Below, in pieces: positions 19,061-28,345 of a DNA stretch of 47,904 bases. The notes under the pieces are model-generated. The model searched no databases, had not been told where the DNA came from, and saw only the letters and a program-made list of their open reading frames with translations. Each line of letters opens with the position of its first letter. Position 1 is the stretch's first letter. Both the position numbers and the translations under genes were made by a program. This DNA is from Acidobacteriota bacterium (lineage in GTDB: Bacteria; Acidobacteriota; UBA6911), in NCBI GenBank assembly GCA_016934555.1, contig JAFGSS010000120.1, forward strand, positions 1 to 47,904. The letters are read 5' to 3'.

Positions 19061-19699
19061 TTATGGCGCCAGGATGGCGCCGCCAGTCTCTTCCCCGGGG
19101 AAGAACCTGGCGAGAAAATCGACATAGGCGGAATCCGCGCCGTATTCGGCCCCGAAAGCGTCGATAAGGGCCCGGACGAACGCCAGGCACTCGACGACGG
19201 CGCCGGAGGGGAAGCCGGAATCCCGGAGCCCCGGCATCCCCTCTCCCTCCCGGGGACGGCGCACGGACTCGACCGCGGCCCGGATCTCGCGTCGCACCCC
19301 CTCTACGCGCGGATCTTCGGAGGTCCGTTCGTACACGATCCCCGCGTCCTCGGCCCGGCAGCTTTCGAGCAGGAGGTCGACCGCATCCCGGGCGTGCCGG
19401 TCGGCCAGGTCGCGCTGCCGGATCCTCTGGCGCGCGAGCGTGTATTCGAGGCGCGCGATCGCTTCCGGATAACGCTCCAGGACCCGCTCGTGGATCTCCC
19501 GATCGCGCGCCGGAAGCCGGCCGAGCACCTTCCGGTAGGAGCGCGCATCGCGCTCTCGCCCCGCCTCGAGAAAGGGGCAGGAGTCCGGGCACGCAATCTC
19601 CAGGACCCGCTTTTCACCGCAGCACTGGGGACAGATACGCGCCCGCCCGGCGGGGCACTCCCGCTTCGCCTTCCTCTCGCCGCACAGGATGCATTTCAC
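19061..19699 (-). CDS. Conserved hypothetical protein with N-terminal zinc ribbon
   Basis: [50 protein letters not shown] start at 19699 overlaps the stop of the upstream gene (GTGA). The ORF track starts at 19729. Confidence 0.7.
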   Translation of the reverse strand: MKCILCGERKAKRECPAGRARICPQCCGEKRVLEIACPDSCPFLEAGRERDARSYRKVLGRLPARDREIHERVLERYPEAIARLEYTLARQRIRQRDLADRHARDAVDLLLESCRAEDAGIVYERTSEDPRVEGVRREIRAAVESVRRPREGEGMPGLRDSGFPSGAVVECLAFVRALIDAFGAEYGADSAYVDFLARFFPGEETGGAILAP

Positions 19700-20454
19700 G
19701 CGCCCCCCTCCCGCCTCCGCCGGCGGCAAAACTCCCGGAGAAACCCCCGGGCGCTCCCGTAATCCGGATGCGCCCTCTCCGCCCTGCGGAATTCGGGAGG
19801 GTGGTGGCCGGCCGCCCCCACCCCCTCGAAGACCGCGTGCAGCATCTCATGATACACGATAAATTCCAGCACGCAGCGGGGGACTTCGGGGGAGTCGAGG
19901 ACCGGGCTCACGGTGACCGTGTGGTGCGCCGGGTCGTAATGCCCCAGCCGGGTGCGGCTCCGGCGCAGCCCCCACCCGATCCGCGCGACCTGGACCTGGC
20001 CGTTGAAAAAACGGCGGTTGACCTCCGCGTAGATGTCGGGCAGGCGGTGGTGGAAACCCGCATGGGGGGCGAAACGCTTTTTCCCCTTCTCGATGCGGCG
20101 CAACCGGACAGATTCCACGACCGATTCCCGGCGGCGGAAGCCCTCATACGCCTCCAGGGCCTTCGGGGGGGCCTTCCGGCGCAGGATCTTGCATGCCAGG
20201 ATCCTGATGACGGCCTCGAGCACCGCCGGCGGCGCCAGGCGGCAATGGTCGCTGATGCGGATCTCCCAGTCCCCCGATCGGTTCCGGCGGATGGTGTGCG
20301 TCAACCCGATGTAGGGATAAAAGCGGGCGTGCACCCGTGCGTTCCCGAGCGCGGGGATGCAGCTTGCGAGGACGGAGCGGCAGAACCGTTCGAGATCCAT
20401 CCCGTCCGTCCGCTCGCCGGGAATCCCCCCCGGCGCGGGAACGCCGCCCGTCAT
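19696..20454 (-). CDS. SprT-like zinc metallopeptidase domain protein
   Basis: [32 protein letters not shown]: HExxH plus a downstream H..EF. Confidence 0.8.
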
Positions 20455-21485
20455 GCCGTGCCCGGGGTGCCCCTGAGCCGAGCCACTTCCTTTTTCAGGG
20501 ATTCCAGTTCGGCCTTCATTTCGGGCAGCCTCCCGAAAAGGGCGTTCAGGCGCTTGTAGTCGCCGAGCGGCCGGACCGGCACGCCCCAGTAGACCCCCCC
20601 GCTGCGCACGATCTTCCCGGGGAGGACCCCGGCCTTCGACCCGATCACGACACCGGGTTCGACCCGGACGTGGTCCCCGAAACCCACCTGCCCCCCGATC
20701 ACGGCATGGTCTCCGATGACGGTGCTCCCCGAGATCCCGGTCTGCGCGGCGATCACCACGTGCCGCCCTATCTCCACGTTGTGCGCGATCTGGACCAGGT
20801 TGTCGATCTTCGATCCGGCGCCGACGCGCGTCGTCCCGAGCGAGCCCCGGTCGATGGTGGTGTTGGCGCCGATTTCGACGTCATCCTCGAGGACCACCGA
20901 CCCGACCTGCGGAAACTTCCAGTAAGCTTCGCCGTCACTCACGTAACCGAACCCGTCCGCACCGATGACGGCCCCGGCGTGCAGCACGACGCGGCTGCCG
21001 ATCCGGACCCCCGGATAGAGCACGACGCCGGGATGCAGCACGCACCCGGCGCCCAGGACACACTCCCTCCCGACCACGACCCCGGCGCCCAGGATGGTGC
21101 CGGGACCGATGCGGACCCCCGGCTCCACGACGGCGCGGGGGCCCACGTCCACCAGGGCGCCGAGCTCGGCGTCCGGGGCGATTTCGGCCGACGGGTGGCG
21201 CGTCCCCCGCCCCTCGGGCCTCGGGTGGAGCCACCCGGCGGCCCGGGCAAAATCAAGCTTGGGCCGGGGGGAGTAGATCACGTTGACGCCGGCGGGAGAG
21301 CAGTCGGGGGAGGCGATGACGCACCCGAACCCGGACAGGGACACGCTCCCCTTGGCCCCCTCCAGGAAAACCAGGGAGGAGGCGCCGGGGGATTCCCAGC
21401 CCGACACCGATGTTATCAGGCGCGCGCCGTCCCCCTGGAATTCGCGGCCAAGGCGCGCGGCAAGCTGCTGGATCGTGTAGCTCAT
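20451..21485 (-). CDS. lpxD: UDP-3-O-acylglucosamine N-acyltransferase
   Basis: Left-handed beta-helix hexapeptide repeats; [44 protein letters not shown]. Confidence 0.96.
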
Positions 21486-21524
21486 CGATACCTTCCCGAA
21501 AAGGACGCCCCGGCGGGTCGGGCT

Positions 21525-23414
21525 TCAGGGCAGGATGAGGTCGTGCTCCGCCGTCTCCAGCTCGACCCGCTTCCCGTTGGCGTAGATGTCGTGCCTGCCC
21601 CGCTCCCGGTTCCAATCAGCCAGGTCCGCGGTGCGGTGGACGCTCTCGACGATCTGCCGCCACCCGATGCCGGTGTTGTAGGCGCAGAAGGAGATCTCCC
21701 CTTCCTGGGTGCCGTAGGGGATGACGCACATTTCGGTGCGGCGGAAGTCGTAGGTCCAGAGGTCCTGGAACCACATCCCCTCCACGCAGAGCACGCGCCA
21801 CTCGTCCCCGGCCGCGCGCGTTTTCATGCGATCGGTCCGGTCACCGTCCGAACGCTCCGAACTCGGCCGGAACAGGCGGATGATGCGGGACACGCCGAAT
21901 CCCGGGGGCGCCAGTTCCGGCCGGCTGTTGCGCAGGACGGCCAGGGCGAGCTGCGCTTCGGTGAGCCGGCGCCCGCGCGCGGCATTGGTGATGACGTGCA
22001 CGTCGCGGATGAAGCGTTCGTAGTCGAAGAACCGGAACACCGGCATCCATTCCTTGGTCCGGCGGTTGACCAGCAGCAGGGTGAAAACGCCGCAGTCGGG
22101 GTGGCAGTTGCAGGCGCTCCAGCCCCAGGGGGCTTCCGGCCCCTGGAGGATGTCCATGATGGTCGTGAATGCACTGTAGGTCGACAGCGGGAACCAGTCG
22201 CGCATCGGTTCCGGGCGGCCGCCGAGCTGCCGCTGGAGATCCTCCACGAGCTGGGTCAGGGTGTAGCGGCGGGCGGCGCGCGAAGCGTCGTCGATCGTCT
22301 CGTCCCGGCCGGTGAAGGAGACCGGCTGGAAGACCACGGTCTGCACCTTGTCGGCGTTCCTGATGGCGAAATCCACGATCGAGCCGACGGCGTCCTGGTT
22401 CACAGTCCGGATCACCGTGGTGACCAGCGTCGTCTTCATCCCGACCCGGGCCATGTTCTCGATCGCCCGCGCCTTGACGTCGAAGAGGTTCCCCACGCCG
22501 CGGTGCCGGTTCCGTTCGTTGCCGATGCCGTCGAACTGCAGGTAGGTGCCGTCGAGCCCGGCATCCCGCGCCTGGCGGGTGAATTCGGCGCTCTGGGCGA
22601 AGCGGATGCCGTTGGTGGCCGCCAGGATGCGATAGAACCCGATCTTCCTGGCGTAGGCGACCGCCTCCAGAAAATGGGGCGACAGGGTGGGTTCCCCCCC
22701 GGAAAACAGGATGATGGTCTGCCGGCGCGGCTTGAAGGAAACGGCGCGGTCGAGGATCGCGCGGATCTCCCCGAGGGAGGGCTCGTGGACGAACCCCACC
22801 TGGTTGGCGTTGGTGAAACAGGGGTTGCACATCATGTTGCACCGGTTGGTCAGATCGACCGTCAGCACCGTGCCCCGCCCGTAGCGGATCGACGAGGAGC
22901 CGTGGTGGTGGACGGGGTCCTCCTCGGGACACTCGAAATCGCGGCCGAAGAAGAGTCCTTCGATCCTGCGGGTGAATTCCGGCCGGGTGGAGATCACGTC
23001 CTCGAAATCCCCGTGAACGGGACAGGTCTTTCGGATCAGGATGCGTCCGTCCTCCTCGACCAGGCGGGCCTTGATTTCCCCGGGACGGTCCCGGAGCAGC
23101 GCCTCGAGCGGCATCTCACCTTCAACCACCCTGCGCCGGATTTCGGGTACGCAGACGGGGCAGAGCGAATCGGTTTCTCTGGGAAAACCAAGCGGCGGGG
23201 CCGAACGCTCCCGGCTCTTCGGAATTCTGCCCGGCGCCCAGTTCGGCTCCGGCAGCCGCCCCTCGGGGATCGTGCGGTTGACCGCCTGCAGCACCTTCCA
23301 GGCCGCATCGGCCGCAGACTTGAGGAGTACGCCCCCGCTCCGGCGGAGGAAGGGATTTTTCGGAGGCATGTCCGGCGGCGGGCCGTCCCCCCGCATCGGT
23401 GGCTTCGGTTCCAT
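21525..23414 (-). CDS. Radical SAM protein resembling the tetraether lipid synthase (Tes/MJ0619) family
   Basis: Radical SAM motif CNMMCNPCF; rubredoxin-like N-terminal CPVC...KTCPVHGDFEDVIS; SGGEPTLSPHF; extra Cys clusters CNCHPDCG and MCVIPYGTQEGEISFCAYN. Confidence 0.85.
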   Translation of the reverse strand: MEPKPPMRGDGPPPDMPPKNPFLRRSGGVLLKSAADAAWKVLQAVNRTIPEGRLPEPNWAPGRIPKSRERSAPPLGFPRETDSLCPVCVPEIRRRVVEGEMPLEALLRDRPGEIKARLVEEDGRILIRKTCPVHGDFEDVISTRPEFTRRIEGLFFGRDFECPEEDPVHHHGSSSIRYGRGTVLTVDLTNRCNMMCNPCFTNANQVGFVHEPSLGEIRAILDRAVSFKPRRQTIILFSGGEPTLSPHFLEAVAYARKIGFYRILAATNGIRFAQSAEFTRQARDAGLDGTYLQFDGIGNERNRHRGVGNLFDVKARAIENMARVGMKTTLVTTVIRTVNQDAVGSIVDFAIRNADKVQTVVFQPVSFTGRDETIDDASRAARRYTLTQLVEDLQRQLGGRPEPMRDWFPLSTYSAFTTIMDILQGPEAPWGWSACNCHPDCGVFTLLLVNRRTKEWMPVFRFFDYERFIRDVHVITNAARGRRLTEAQLALAVLRNSRPELAPPGFGVSRIIRLFRPSSERSDGDRTDRMKTRAAGDEWRVLCVEGMWFQDLWTYDFRRTEMCVIPYGTQEGEISFCAYNTGIGWRQIVESVHRTADLADWNRERGRHDIYANGKRVELETAEHDLILP

Positions 23415-23470
23415 ACAGCCGTAAAGCTACCAGCATTTTCCGGCAGCGTCCATCCAATTATCGGACACGC

Positions 23471-24031
23471 CTACAGGTACCGCTCGAGCCACAGCCGCCC
23501 GACGAGGATCGCCAGCACGACGAGCAGGCTGGCGCTGTTACGGTGCTCGCGGTTGCGGACCACGCGCGACCAGAGGAAGGTGGAGCCGTCCCCCCGGGCC
23601 CCCGACCAGCGGGGGAAGAACAGGGGCACCCTGTCGGCGTACCGGAGGAACCGTTCCCCGTGGGTACGCTGCAGGTCCCCTTCTTCGGCCCGCATGACGG
23701 GGAGGTAGAAAACCAGGAAGAAGGCAAGAAAGAAGGGGAGGAGCCAGTATCCCTGGCCGGCGAGGATGACGCCCAGGGCCATGACGAAGGAACCCACGTA
23801 GAGGGGGTTGCGGGAGAAGGCGTAAGGCCCCCCCTGGGCCAGAACCCGCCCCTTTTCGATGTACCCCGCGGCCCACAGGCGCCAGAGCCCCCCGGCGACG
23901 GCGAGCGCGCCGCCGATCCAGAGCGACCGGACCGAGGGGTGCATGAAGGCGAGGAACACCACCCCCAGGACGGTACCGACGGGGACCCGGAACCTCTGGG
24001 CCGTTTTCTTCCAGGAACGGGTTCCCTTCAT
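23471..24031 (-). CDS. Isoprenylcysteine carboxyl methyltransferase / PEMT-like membrane methyltransferase
   Basis: Several TM segments; GPYAFSRNPLYVGSFVMALGVIL and EEGDLQRTHGERFLRYADRVPLFFP. Start at 24031 preferred over the ORF-track 24061. Confidence 0.82.
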   Translation of the reverse strand: MKGTRSWKKTAQRFRVPVGTVLGVVFLAFMHPSVRSLWIGGALAVAGGLWRLWAAGYIEKGRVLAQGGPYAFSRNPLYVGSFVMALGVILAGQGYWLLPFFLAFFLVFYLPVMRAEEGDLQRTHGERFLRYADRVPLFFPRWSGARGDGSTFLWSRVVRNREHRNSASLLVVLAILVGRLWLERYL

Positions 24032-24044
24032 GCCCGTTCCCCTG

Positions 24045-26057
24045 CTATGGCTCGGGCGCATCCATGACGGTGCGCTCGCGGGTGAAGGGGGTGGTAAGCC
24101 ACCGGGCCGCTTCCATCTGCGCGCCGTCGGTGTCGTCGTTGGTGTTCAGGGCCTTGGTGTACTCGGCCATCGCCCTCTGCCGCTGCCCCAGGATATCGTA
24201 GATCTTGCCCAGATAGATGTAGCACCACACCTCGATCCATTTCGGGTCCAGGTCCCCGTTCAGGGCATCCCGGAAGGAGTTGGCCGCGGACTGCAGGCTG
24301 AACTGTTCGTAGAAAACTTCGGCGAGCCGGAAGTGGGCCAGCGACCTCCGCGGGGACAGCTTGAGCGCCGCTTCATAGGCCCGGATCGCTTCGACGAAAT
24401 TCTGGACCCGTTTCAGGTCGTCGCCGAGCGAGATCTGGACCGCGGTCTTCAGTTCGCCGGAATCCCGCAGCAGTTTGTTGCGGGGGTCCACCACCAGCCG
24501 GTCGGGCCGGGTGAAGACGTCGATGTCGAAGGGGGTCGAGGTCCCGGACAGTTCCACGGTCTGCACGGTCTCCCGGTCCTTGGTGACGACGGCGACCTCC
24601 ACGGGCATCCGGAACAGGTCGCGCTCCTGCCGGAGCGATCCCGAAATCCGGAAGCCGTCGATCGTCTTGAGCAGGACGTAATCCGCCTCGAGCGTGGGGA
24701 TGCCGACGGAATCGATCCACTGGGAGAAAAACCACCCGAGTTCCCCGCCGTGGATCTCCTCGGCGATTTTCCGGAACATCTCCCGCCCCCCCCCGCCGGC
24801 GGCGGTCCCGGCGCGGCCGTATTCCCGCACCAGGCGGTCGAACTTCTCTTCCCCCAGGATCCCCTGAAGCATATGGAGAATCCATGCCCCTTTGCCGGCC
24901 ACCACCGATTCGTACCGGTCGGACCGGTACCCCAGTTCGATCCCCGAGCGTACGGCCGCCTGCTTTTCGAACTTGAGCGCCAGCACGGCCAGCCGGTCGA
25001 TCTCCTCCTTGAAGGCGGCGTCGGCACCCACGCTCCCCAGGTACCGGGCCGCGGAGTAATACGCCATCCCGTCGGCAAGCCACAGATCCTCGACGCCCCG
25101 GACCCCGACTGTTTCCTGCCACCACTGGCCGGCGATGCGGCGGGCCAGTTCGCGCGGCTCGGGGGGGGACTGGGCCAGTTCGCGCCGGGTAACCAAAAGG
25201 GTTCCGTACATTCCGTGCTGCCCCGCCTGCACCTCGTCCACCTCCACCAGGCGGAAATGCTTCCCCGCCCCCGCGGGGCCGAACGCCGCCGCGTACCAGG
25301 AGAGAATCTTCCCCGCCTCTCCCGCCATCCGCTCCATGGCTTCGAGATTGCTTTCCCGCGCGAAACACTCGATTTCAAATTCCCCCGCCGGCACCGTGCG
25401 GAGGAAATACTGCCCCGCGATGAAGGACCCGGGCAGGATCGGGGTCTCCGATTTCCAGACGAAGGTTTCGCCGGCTCCCCGGGTGACGACGGGGAGCCGC
25501 TTCCCGGGGCCGATGACCGTCATCCCCAGGGGGACGGTCACGGACAGGGTTCCCGTCGCCCGGTCGGCCAGAAACCGGTTCAGGGGAAACCATTTCGCCG
25601 CGTACATCAGGGCGGTCCCTTCCATCCCGATGTAGGCCGACCCGAGGTCCCGGGAAAATATCCGGCTGTACCGGTCGCTGTCGAACCCGCCATCGTATTC
25701 GATCCGGATCGTGGCCGCCCTCCCCGCCTCGAGCCCCCGGGGGAAATACACCGTGAGGGTCTCCGGACCGGCCCGGTTCCGGTCGAATTCCAGTTCGACC
25801 CCGTCCTCGCCGAGCACCTTCGACACGAACAGGTTGTCGCTCAGTTCGAAGGCCGCGTAGTCCGCCTGTTCGAGCGCCTGGAACGTAATCGCGGCGACGG
25901 CCTCCAGTTCATGCACATCCGGAAGGAGCGTCACCTCGAGGTCGCAGTTCTTTACATCGATGCCCGGGGCTTTGCCGGGCGCCTGCGCCGACACGGACGG
26001 CACGATCAGGACGAGGCCCAGGACGATCCCGGCGGCCCATGAGTGTATTCGATACAT
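24045..26057 (-). CDS. Secreted M1-peptidase-like protein with C-terminal TPRs, zinc site not conserved
   Basis: Signal peptide MYRIHSWAAGIVLGLVLIVPSVSAQA; M1-like fold text (AQAGQHGMYGTLLV, ELARRIAGQWWQETVGVRGVEDLWLADGMAYYSA); C-terminal TPR repeats. Confidence 0.8.
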   Translation of the reverse strand: MYRIHSWAAGIVLGLVLIVPSVSAQAPGKAPGIDVKNCDLEVTLLPDVHELEAVAAITFQALEQADYAAFELSDNLFVSKVLGEDGVELEFDRNRAGPETLTVYFPRGLEAGRAATIRIEYDGGFDSDRYSRIFSRDLGSAYIGMEGTALMYAAKWFPLNRFLADRATGTLSVTVPLGMTVIGPGKRLPVVTRGAGETFVWKSETPILPGSFIAGQYFLRTVPAGEFEIECFARESNLEAMERMAGEAGKILSWYAAAFGPAGAGKHFRLVEVDEVQAGQHGMYGTLLVTRRELAQSPPEPRELARRIAGQWWQETVGVRGVEDLWLADGMAYYSAARYLGSVGADAAFKEEIDRLAVLALKFEKQAAVRSGIELGYRSDRYESVVAGKGAWILHMLQGILGEEKFDRLVREYGRAGTAAGGGGREMFRKIAEEIHGGELGWFFSQWIDSVGIPTLEADYVLLKTIDGFRISGSLRQERDLFRMPVEVAVVTKDRETVQTVELSGTSTPFDIDVFTRPDRLVVDPRNKLLRDSGELKTAVQISLGDDLKRVQNFVEAIRAYEAALKLSPRRSLAHFRLAEVFYEQFSLQSAANSFRDALNGDLDPKWIEVWCYIYLGKIYDILGQRQRAMAEYTKALNTNDDTDGAQMEAARWLTTPFTRERTVMDAPEP

Positions 26058-26066
26058 AGCCCATCC

Positions 26067-27224
26067 TTATAGAAAGCCGTTGACGGCCGCGGCCGCTCTC
26101 TCCGATGCCCGGTGCGCACCCAGCAGCTGCCTCACCCTGCGGAGCCGGTCGCGCATCGCGGCGCTCTCCGCGGGGCTTTCCAGGTATTGCAGCGCCACCC
26201 GCGCGAGCGCCTCCGGGCTGGCCTGGTCCTGGAACAGCTCCGGGACGATCCGTTCCCCGGCGATCAGGTTGACCAGCCCCTTCGTGCAGCCGCGGATCAG
26301 CAGCGATCCCACCAGCCAGCTCAGCCGGGATATCTTGTACATGGTCAGGAAAGGGACTCCGGCCAGCGCGGCTTCTAGCGTGCTCGTCCCGCTCTTGACG
26401 AAGGCGAAGTCGGCCCCGGCGACAATGTCCCGGGAACTGCCCGTGAGCATGTGAAAATGGCTCCTGCCCTCCCTCCCCCCGAGGGTTTTTTCGACGATCC
26501 TTTCGACCTGCCCGGCATCGACGGTGGGCGCCACGGACACCAGGAACCGGACCGGCATCCTCTTCATCAGTTCGCACCCGGCCAGCAGGAGGGTGGGCAG
26601 GATATGGTCGACCTCCCGCCGCCGGCTCCCGGGCAGAAGGGCCACGGTCCGGCGTTCCGGGTCGGGGGCCACGGCCGGGGGGCGGTCCGGGCCCGGGGAT
26701 CCCTCAAGCAGGGGGTGGCCCACGAACTCGGCCTCGACGCCGCGCTCGCGGTAGTAGGCCTCTTCGAAGGGGAGGATCACCAGCATCCTGTCCACGCACT
26801 CCCGGATGGTCCGGATACGGCCTTTGCGCCACGCCCAGATCTGAGGGCTGATGTAGTAAACAACGGGAACCCCGAGCCGCTTCATCCTTTTGGCCAGCCT
26901 CAGGTTGAACTCCGGAAAATCCAGGAGCACCGCGACCCGGGGCGGCTCCGCGGCCGATGCCCTGAGGAGCAGTTTAAAGGTTCTGAAGTAGGTGCGCAAC
27001 CCCGTGAGCGCTTCCTTCGGGCCGATGTGCCCCAGCTCGCGCACGTGGCACAGCAGCTCCACGCCGGCCGCCTGCATGGCGTCCCCGCCGGCCCCGTAAA
27101 ACCGGAGGTCTCCGTTCCCGGGAAGCGCGCCGAGGCGCCGCACCAGTTCCGCCCCGTACCGGTCGGCCGAGGCCTCCCCCGCCACGATGAGCACCCTCGC
27201 GGATTTCGCGCCCGCCCCCTTCAT
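26067..27224 (-). CDS. lpxB: Lipid-A-disaccharide synthase
   Basis: VLIVAGEASADRYGAELVRRL, FYGAGGDAMQAAGVELL, VVYYISPQIWAWRKGRI, LLPGSRRREV; start at 27224 (ATGA overlap with mnmA). Confidence 0.95.
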   Translation of the reverse strand: MKGAGAKSARVLIVAGEASADRYGAELVRRLGALPGNGDLRFYGAGGDAMQAAGVELLCHVRELGHIGPKEALTGLRTYFRTFKLLLRASAAEPPRVAVLLDFPEFNLRLAKRMKRLGVPVVYYISPQIWAWRKGRIRTIRECVDRMLVILPFEEAYYRERGVEAEFVGHPLLEGSPGPDRPPAVAPDPERRTVALLPGSRRREVDHILPTLLLAGCELMKRMPVRFLVSVAPTVDAGQVERIVEKTLGGREGRSHFHMLTGSSRDIVAGADFAFVKSGTSTLEAALAGVPFLTMYKISRLSWLVGSLLIRGCTKGLVNLIAGERIVPELFQDQASPEALARVALQYLESPAESAAMRDRLRRVRQLLGAHRASERAAAAVNGFL

Positions 27225-28345
27225 CTCCCCTCCGCCGCCGCGCCTGACGGCCCGGGCGGACGGGCGCCGGTGGCGGGCTTTCGGATCCACCCTCCCCCGA
27301 CAACGGCCCCGTCCCGGTAAAACACGCACGCCTGGCCCGGGGTGACCGCCGGCTGCGGCGCATCGAAAACCACCTCCACGCCGCCGTCTTCGATCGGCGC
27401 GATGACGGCCGGGGCGGCCTCGTGCCGCGACCGTATCCTGGCCCGCACGGCGAGGGGCCCATCGAGCGAAGGGATGGCGATCCAGTTGGGCCGGATCACG
27501 CGGCAGCGGCGTGAACCGAGCAGCGCCCGTTCCCCCACGACCACGGTATTGTCCCCGGGCCGCAGCTCGATGACGTAGAGCGGCTCCCGGTGGGCGATGC
27601 CCAATCCCCGCCGCTGGCCGACCGTGTAGCGGTGCAGCCCCCGATGCCGCCCCAGGACGCGGCCGTCGACGTCCACGACGGGGCCGGCTCCGGGCGTCTC
27701 CGGTCCTTCCCCCGCGCCGCCCGGAGCGCCGTGAGTCTCCACGAAGGAGGCGTAGTCCCCGTCGGGGATGAAGCAGATCTCCTGGCTCTCCGGCTTTTCG
27801 GCGACCGGGATATCATGGGCGCGCGCGATCCGGCGCACCTCCTCCTTTTCCAGGTCGCCGAGCGGGAACAGGGCCCGGGAGAGCTGTTCCTGGGTGAGTT
27901 CGAACAGATAATAGGATTGGTCCTTGTTCCGGTCCCGGGCCTCGGCGAGCACGAACCGCCCGCTCGAGGGGTCGCGCCCCAACCGCGCGTAATGGCCGGT
28001 GGCGATGCGCCCGGCGCCCACTTTCCCCGCAAGCCGGAACAGCCGGTCGAATTTCATCAGGGAATTGCAGCGGACGCAGGGGGAGGGGGTCAGGCCTCTG
28101 CGGTAATCCTCGACGAAGGGGCGTACTATCTCCCGCTCGAACTCCTCCCTCAGGTCGGCCACGTGAAACGGTATCCCGAGCCGGGCGGCTACTGCGCGGG
28201 CGTCCCGCAGGTCCCCGGGGACACCCGGGACCTGGTCCCGGAACTTCAGGGAAAAACCAACCAGGTCGCAGCCGGAATTCTTCAGGATGACGGCGGCGAC
28301 CGAACTGTCCACACCGCCGCTCATGGCAATGGCCACCCTTTCCAT
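27221..28345 (-). CDS. mnmA: tRNA-specific 2-thiouridylase MnmA
   Basis: VAIAMSGGVDSSVAAVIL, PSPCVRCNSLMKF, KDQSYYLFELTQEQLSRALFPLGDLEKEEVR. Confidence 0.96.
   Translation of the reverse strand: MERVAIAMSGGVDSSVAAVILKNSGCDLVGFSLKFRDQVPGVPGDLRDARAVAARLGIPFHVADLREEFEREIVRPFVEDYRRGLTPSPCVRCNSLMKFDRLFRLAGKVGAGRIATGHYARLGRDPSSGRFVLAEARDRNKDQSYYLFELTQEQLSRALFPLGDLEKEEVRRIARAHDIPVAEKPESQEICFIPDGDYASFVETHGAPGGAGEGPETPGAGPVVDVDGRVLGRHRGLHRYTVGQRRGLGIAHREPLYVIELRPGDNTVVVGERALLGSRRCRVIRPNWIAIPSLDGPLAVRARIRSRHEAAPAVIAPIEDGGVEVVFDAPQPAVTPGQACVFYRDGAVVGGGWIRKPATGARPPGPSGAAAEGR

Follow-up and report, generated by a model that had tools for sequence, protein, structure and literature searches.

Widely used soil palaeothermometers are based on iso-diabolic acid and branched GDGTs, which are produced by Acidobacteriota. 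According to the accessible literature, proof that an enzyme couples lipid tails is lacking for this phylum, and its homologues of the archaeal enzyme Tes are candidates only. A role in brGDGT synthesis has been suggested, without proof, for Tes homologues of bacteria, Acidobacteriota among them (PMC8941075, PMC10087280, PMC11868695). A gene for a Tes-like radical SAM enzyme that is embedded among lipid A genes of an acidobacterial chromosome raises the question whether it encodes a tail-coupling activity and on which envelope lipid such an enzyme would act. The window, i.e. the entire stretch of DNA analysed here, comprises 47,904 nucleotides (contig JAFGSS010000120.1).

The gene, its neighbourhood and its family

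The gene is an intact open reading frame on the minus strand (Table 1). A first-pass annotation had given its length, its exact span and its acidobacterial host correctly, while leaving the strand unstated, and all the motifs quoted there are present: CPVC (C85, C88), CPVH (C131, H134), CNMMCNPCF (C192/C196/C199), CNCHPDCG (C435/C437/C441) and MCVIPYGTQEGEISFCAYN (C563, C577). Relatives in other genomes share 94, 87 and 62-77% identity, dN is 0.029 versus a dS of 0.142 against the closest relative, and a 76% relative is found in the same genus (JAFGTD010000002.1, 'Acidobacteria bacterium isolate Zod_Metabat.95'). Thus, the open reading frame is a real gene and is under purifying selection. An open frame of 1123 aa on the plus strand (20337-23708), antisense to the Tes-like gene and lpxD, is a GC-rich shadow ORF and no gene.

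The Tes-like gene is the fifth in a tight run of genes on the same strand, in the order mnmA, lpxB, M1-peptidase/TPR gene, PEMT/ICMT-like methyltransferase gene, Tes-like gene, lpxD, SprT-like gene and Cys-rich ORF. Its direct neighbours are therefore those named in the first-pass annotation. The best score of the methyltransferase is obtained with the Leptospira lipid A 1-phosphate methyltransferase LmtA, far under the cut-off, and the methyl acceptor of the enzyme may be a lipid A phosphate instead of phosphatidylethanolamine.

Table 1. Genes of the run and sites of the Tes-like enzyme in the window.
Feature	Position	Strand	Basis
mnmA, first gene of the packed run	27221..28345	-	
lpxB, with the internal ATG at 27224 as its likely start (ORF listed from 27329)	26067..27224	-	TIGR00215, 253 bits, cut-off 190
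M1-peptidase-like protein with TPR	24045..26057	-	
PEMT/ICMT-family methyltransferase, 56 nt upstream of the Tes-like gene	23471..24061	-	NCBIfam best Leptospira LmtA, 63.6 bits, cut-off 325
A1-type Tes-like radical SAM enzyme, 629 aa	21525..23414	-	NCBIfam Tes 292.5 bits; PDB 7tol, E=1.5e-63; Foldseek best 7tol/7tom
N-terminal helix, residues 21-46, unaligned in canonical Tes	23277..23354	-	AF2 model and alignments
Rubredoxin-like Fe site C85-x2-C88 ... C131-x2-H134 (MJ0619 C9, C12, C33, H36)	23013..23162	-	PF23545 zinc ribbon, 50.4 bits, and homology
Former N-terminal [4Fe-4S] cluster position, HxHGSSxIxxGRG in place of CPxxCGxCxxH	22872..22910	-	alignment
Radical SAM cluster CX3CX2C (C192, C196, C199)	22818..22841	-	motif and alignment
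QPVSFTGR, residues 363-370 (MJ0619 Q268/S271/T273/R275, contacting 5'-dAH and closing the active site)	22305..22328	-	homology
CxCHPxC: C441, catalytic [4Fe-4S]C ligand; C435 and C437, extra Cys of the subfamily	22092..22112	-	alignment
M547 (MJ0619 labile cluster ligand Met439)	21774..21776	-	homology
C563 and C577, other [4Fe-4S]C ligands; Y567 (Y459)	21684..21728	-	homology
lpxD, 39 nt downstream of the Tes-like gene	20451..21485	-	TIGR01853, 309 bits, cut-off 242.5
SprT-like metalloprotease (19696-20454) and Cys-rich ORF (19061-19729), after lpxD	19061..20454	-	

Among the NCBIfam profiles, the protein matches Tes (NF045702) best, although its score stays below the equivalog cut-off of 450; the profile for TrsS (NF045646) ranks second with 207.9 bits (cut-off 490), and all others score far lower. 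In a PDB sequence search, the protein matched the archaeal Tes/GDGT-MAS structure 7tol across 490 residues. An AlphaFold (AF2) model calculated from 27 homologues (pLDDT 81, pTM 0.86) is matched end-to-end by 7tol/7tom in Foldseek (E=2.9e-35, TM on target 0.82-0.85), and the next structures, MoaA, SkfB and viperin, fit the barrel only. The protein is a full-length relative of MJ0619 beyond the radical SAM barrel, with low sequence identity to it. Profile, PDB and Foldseek comparisons hence agree with the Tes-like fold and family proposed in the first-pass annotation, and the phylogeny does not place the protein in a radical SAM family with an unrelated substrate.

A plain Tes orthologue is ruled out by the score under the cut-off, the tree and the missing N-terminal cluster described below; the protein is also not Tes itself because a canonical Tes gene is present elsewhere in the same genome. 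TrsS has a related N-terminal module and the radical SAM core in common with the window enzyme. It was rejected as an assignment on account of the low score and the absence of an in-frame TGA, and the true TrsS of this genome (535 bits) is a separate gene that keeps the N-cluster motif and contains selenocysteine, neither of which is present in the window enzyme. A pterin methyltransferase was likewise dismissed, since this annotation of MJ0619 is deemed incorrect in PMC9433317. A supposedly similar reaction, tail-to-tail coupling, is carried out by Mss, the proven bacterial membrane-spanning lipid synthase of other phyla (Thermotogota/Bacillota), whose models are said to have the Tes architecture (PMC13274423). 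In Thermotoga maritima, no match to the Tes or the TrsS profile was found at E<=1e-20; by these profiles, Mss is probably no close relative.

The A-type subfamily and its metal sites

The window enzyme belongs to a group of bacterial proteins, here called A-type, that is split from canonical Tes by a branch with a length of 1.1 changes per column. As judged from the sequences, the A-type is a separate bacterial subfamily, apart from canonical Tes, that lost the N-terminal cluster and gained the motif C435-x-C437-H-P-x-C441. The window enzyme, the Pyrinomonas methylaliphatogenes protein and L108 fall into one clade, A1 (mixture-model tree, SH-aLRT 100, one change); no root was drawn from the MJ0619 row, which is a long branch. 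A1 comprises the family f1, which includes the window, Pyrinomonadaceae including P. methylaliphatogenes K22 (69% identity) and a few others, with L108 from a MAG labelled Planctomycetota at its base. The A2-type homologues (~49-56% identity), acidobacterial as well as from other bacteria, show the same cluster loss and CxCHPxC gain, but they are widespread sister forms outside the A1 clade and are devoid of lpx linkage. They are a more obvious candidate than A1 for general iso-diabolic acid synthesis. The canonical-type bacterial homologues share ancestry and the catalytic ligands with the window enzyme, yet have a length of ~535 aa and keep the N-cluster motif. The bacterial Tes homologues can thus be divided into two types, the canonical one and the A-type, which is sharply delimited and lacks one cluster.

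In MJ0619, the rubredoxin site is formed by C9/C12/C33/H36, the [4Fe-4S]N cluster by C73/C77/C80 and a His, and the radical SAM cluster by a CX3CX2C motif; in the [4Fe-4S]C cluster, Met439 is the labile ligand, and the substrate carbon is held there as a C-S bond (PMC9433317). The three Cys ligands of the latter cluster (C338, C455, C470) were assigned here from conservation. The numbering of the ligands was verified, and conservation was followed over a 117-row alignment (47 A1, 59 A2 and 10 canonical-type proteins). Archaeal Tes and the window enzyme share the fold, the rubredoxin-like site, the radical SAM cluster, the C-terminal catalytic [4Fe-4S] cluster with its labile Met and the SAM contacts. 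In contrast to archaeal Tes, the window enzyme is bacterial and encoded in a lipid A block, lacks the N-terminal [4Fe-4S] cluster, and has the extra C435/C437, ~22 more residues within the rubredoxin loop and an added N-terminal helix that might contact the membrane.

The rubredoxin-like site proposed in the first-pass annotation is supported, its Cys residues being invariant across the 106 A-type rows and its His being present in 104. The N-cluster motif CPxxCGxCxxH occurs in 0/47 A1, 0/59 A2 and 10/10 canonical-type proteins, and by this alignment the N-terminal [4Fe-4S] cluster is lost throughout the A-type subfamily (106/106). The second auxiliary cluster of Tes is therefore absent, which the first-pass annotation had overlooked: of the auxiliary ligands that it wanted to see aligned, those of [4Fe-4S]C are kept and those of [4Fe-4S]N are lost in all members. 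What it described as two further Cys clusters is present as Cys motifs, but by homology to MJ0619 these form one cluster, composed of C441, C563, C577 and M547. These residues together with Y567 correspond to C338, C455, C470, Met439 and Tyr459 of MJ0619, and the SAM contacts Q363/S366/R370 (Q268/S271/R275 of MJ0619) are also present. With few exceptions or truncated rows at most, the radical SAM, rubredoxin and [4Fe-4S]C ligands and the three SAM contacts are kept across the 106 relatives.

Next to the catalytic-cluster ligand, the extra Cys C435 is found in 105/106 and C437 in 106/106 A-type proteins. The selenoprotein TrsS of the window genome (C101:3545-4837, L003; in-frame TGA, PPGUEESHCSF) carries its selenocysteine five residues ahead of the catalytic-cluster Cys, in the same stretch as the A-type Cys pair, which suggests that this stretch matters chemically.

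Linkage to lipid A genes and co-occurring Tes genes

The lipid A neighbourhood noted in the first-pass annotation is conserved in other lineages. Among loci flanked by at least 3 kb in both directions, an lpx gene was found within 6 kb in 15/27 A1 loci versus 0/36 A2 loci (Fisher p=1.4e-7, relatedness of rows ignored) and in 0/10 canonical-type loci. Three gene orders occur: lpxB-M1-ICMT-TES-lpxD in the window; lpxB, lpxD and lpxA on the opposite strand and divergent from TES in Pyrinomonas and its kin; and lpxD - lpxC/fabZ - lpxA - lpxB - TES in L108. The lpx names were checked by profiles, in L108 those of LpxD and LpxC/FabZ, in Pyrinomonas those of LpxA, LpxB and LpxD. As the association recurs in three arrangements, a gene-order artefact was rejected. 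Besides the window, lpxD directly follows in 11/11 f1 loci at a distance of 34-350 nt, including those with altered upstream genes. On the tree, the lpx-linkage label undergoes five changes, a pattern compatible with one gain at the base of A1 and later losses. A1 genes away from lpx are those of a derived Pyrinomonadaceae branch and of L102/L092. In L083/L084, a weak lpxD-like match (35-38%) is located ~5 kb off, and the A2 locus L143, which has a short flank, shows an lpxC-like match, so that A2 is not strictly lpx-free.

Approximately 100/217 sampled acidobacterial genomes contain an A-type gene, mostly A2 alone (counted by hand). All A1 carriers that are at least 90% complete (22/22) also possess A2 or a canonical-type Tes, and the window genome combines A1 with canonical Tes and TrsS in the absence of A2. 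Because A1 genomes also carry other Tes-family genes, A1 seems to be an additional copy that serves a purpose of its own.

More than 40% of the membrane lipid of P. methylaliphatogenes K22 consists of ether analogues and membrane-spanning iso-diabolic acids (PMC4644332). At E<=1e-20, the Tes profile matches only two proteins of this cultured strain, the A1 orthologue and a single A2 paralogue, and no canonical Tes. An absence of membrane-spanning lipids from strains with close orthologues, which the first-pass annotation had named as a counter-argument, is thus contradicted by K22, but as the A2 paralogue is also present, the lipids are credited to neither gene. The N-cluster-free subfamily, the lpx-linked clade and the paralogue pattern were not found described in the accessible literature. 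With its place among lipid A genes in three gene orders, A1 is a testable candidate for membrane-spanning lipid synthesis in Acidobacteriota.

Predicted reaction, substrate and further Tes-related genes

With family, fold, ligand pattern, gene context and paralogue pattern established, reaction and substrate can be predicted. We consider it probable that this Tes-type radical SAM enzyme couples two saturated tails of an envelope lipid by an sp3-sp3 C-C bond. By homology to MJ0619, SAM at the C192/C196/C199 cluster would give rise to a 5'-deoxyadenosyl radical, which would abstract a hydrogen close to the terminus of one acyl tail; the C-terminal [4Fe-4S] cluster (C441/C563/C577, M547) would hold the resulting carbon radical in a C-S bond, until the other tail has been activated by a second SAM and both tails couple. 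The tails would be iso-branched acyl chains, yielding a membrane-spanning chain of the iso-diabolic acid type. The A-type enzyme would work without a surface N-terminal [4Fe-4S] cluster, and the A1 branch would represent an additional, lpx-linked copy. The earlier interpretation was largely right with respect to the Tes-like family, the rubredoxin-like site, the catalytic auxiliary cluster and the lipid A context, but not with respect to [4Fe-4S]N.

Tail coupling is opposed by the Tes score under the cut-off, the missing auxiliary cluster and the low identity to MJ0619, and the iso-diabolic acid of K22 may stem wholly from its A2 paralogue. The cluster loss by itself is no argument against coupling, because in MJ0619 the N cluster is located at the surface and the other metallocofactors have no clearly assigned role (PMC9433317). 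The same scaffold could instead catalyse another acyl-chain reaction, such as dehydrogenation, ring formation, sulfur insertion or methyl-branch chemistry. The long A-type branch, the lost [4Fe-4S]N and the C435/C437 gained by the catalytic cluster would fit such a change, and TrsS with its selenocysteine in that stretch indicates that the chemistry there may differ; however, the catalytic-cluster ligands including the labile Met and the SAM contacts are all kept, and the gene co-occurs with iso-diabolic acid in the cultured K22, which renders a different reaction rather unlikely. Very improbable is a maturase or cofactor enzyme without a lipid role, either TrsS-like or a pterin methyltransferase as once annotated for MJ0619. 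Although TrsS is the second-best profile (208 bits) and the Pfam zinc ribbon is named after HMPTM, the Tes profile scores 85 bits above TrsS at full length, a separate true TrsS is present in the genome, the pterin annotation did not hold, and the gene is located in a lipid A context.

As substrate of tail coupling, a glycerophospholipid is slightly favoured, if only tentatively. The crystal of MJ0619 held bacterial phosphatidic acid, and the head groups made no direct contacts (PMC9433317), which makes bacterial acyl lipids plausible substrates. Lipid A or its precursors, suggested only by gene context and paralogue pattern, would be a more doubtful choice. From the lpx linkage of A1, a distinct question arises, namely whether lipid A itself is tail-coupled in Acidobacteriota: A1 might couple tails of lipid A or acylated precursors, mutually or to phospholipid, with the phospholipid form being left to an A2 or canonical paralogue, and the product of A1 would be a macrocyclic, cross-linked or membrane-spanning lipid A. 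This reading would agree with the lpx linkage in three gene orders, whose five changes allow a single gain plus losses, with the constant position of lpxD in f1 and with the observation that A1 never occurs alone. Lipid A is moreover assembled at the cytosolic face, where a Tes-like enzyme would meet it. However, Tes tolerates many head groups, so that context need not equal substrate, and some A1 genes are no longer close to lpx genes. Operon neighbourhood is, moreover, no proof of a shared substrate. The literature search also found no Acidobacteriota lipid A structure and no acidobacterial lipid A with long diacids, and we regard the lipid A reading as a minority possibility. The specific proposal that A1 is a lipid-A-directed coupler on a Tes scaffold minus one cluster, producing such cross-linked, macrocyclic or membrane-spanning lipid A, is still more speculative; to our knowledge, covalently cross-linked or membrane-spanning lipid A has no prior description. 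An incidental lpx neighbourhood, compatible with any of these reactions, would follow if the run were an ordinary housekeeping block, and mnmA and the SprT-like and M1-peptidase genes in it have indeed no relation to lipid A. As the neighbourhood recurs in three gene orders over a deep clade and A2 and canonical-type loci with the same flanks show no association, mere coincidence appears unlikely.

Several further genes were observed in the sampled genomes. The canonical-type Tes of the window genome (C143:2803-4278; L001, L069) scores 557 bits, over the cut-off, carries the N-cluster motif and adjoins ORFs of 197 aa and 2272 aa. The same genome (G000) contains a PF09989 (PlsA/Ger-like) gene in a 1114-aa open frame (C33:2195-2881, L159), and the host may therefore make ether lipids. 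In another genome (G043 C4:78614-80110, L073), a Tes homologue is reported to carry one in-frame TAG, and a second copy is intact. Further A-type genes (49-56% identity) are found in MAGs labelled Myxococcota, Gemmatimonadota, Latescibacterota, KSB1, Calditrichaeota and Deltaproteobacteria (L114-L158, the last group with the label Desulfobacterales), and these bacteria are possible unrecognised makers of membrane-spanning lipids.
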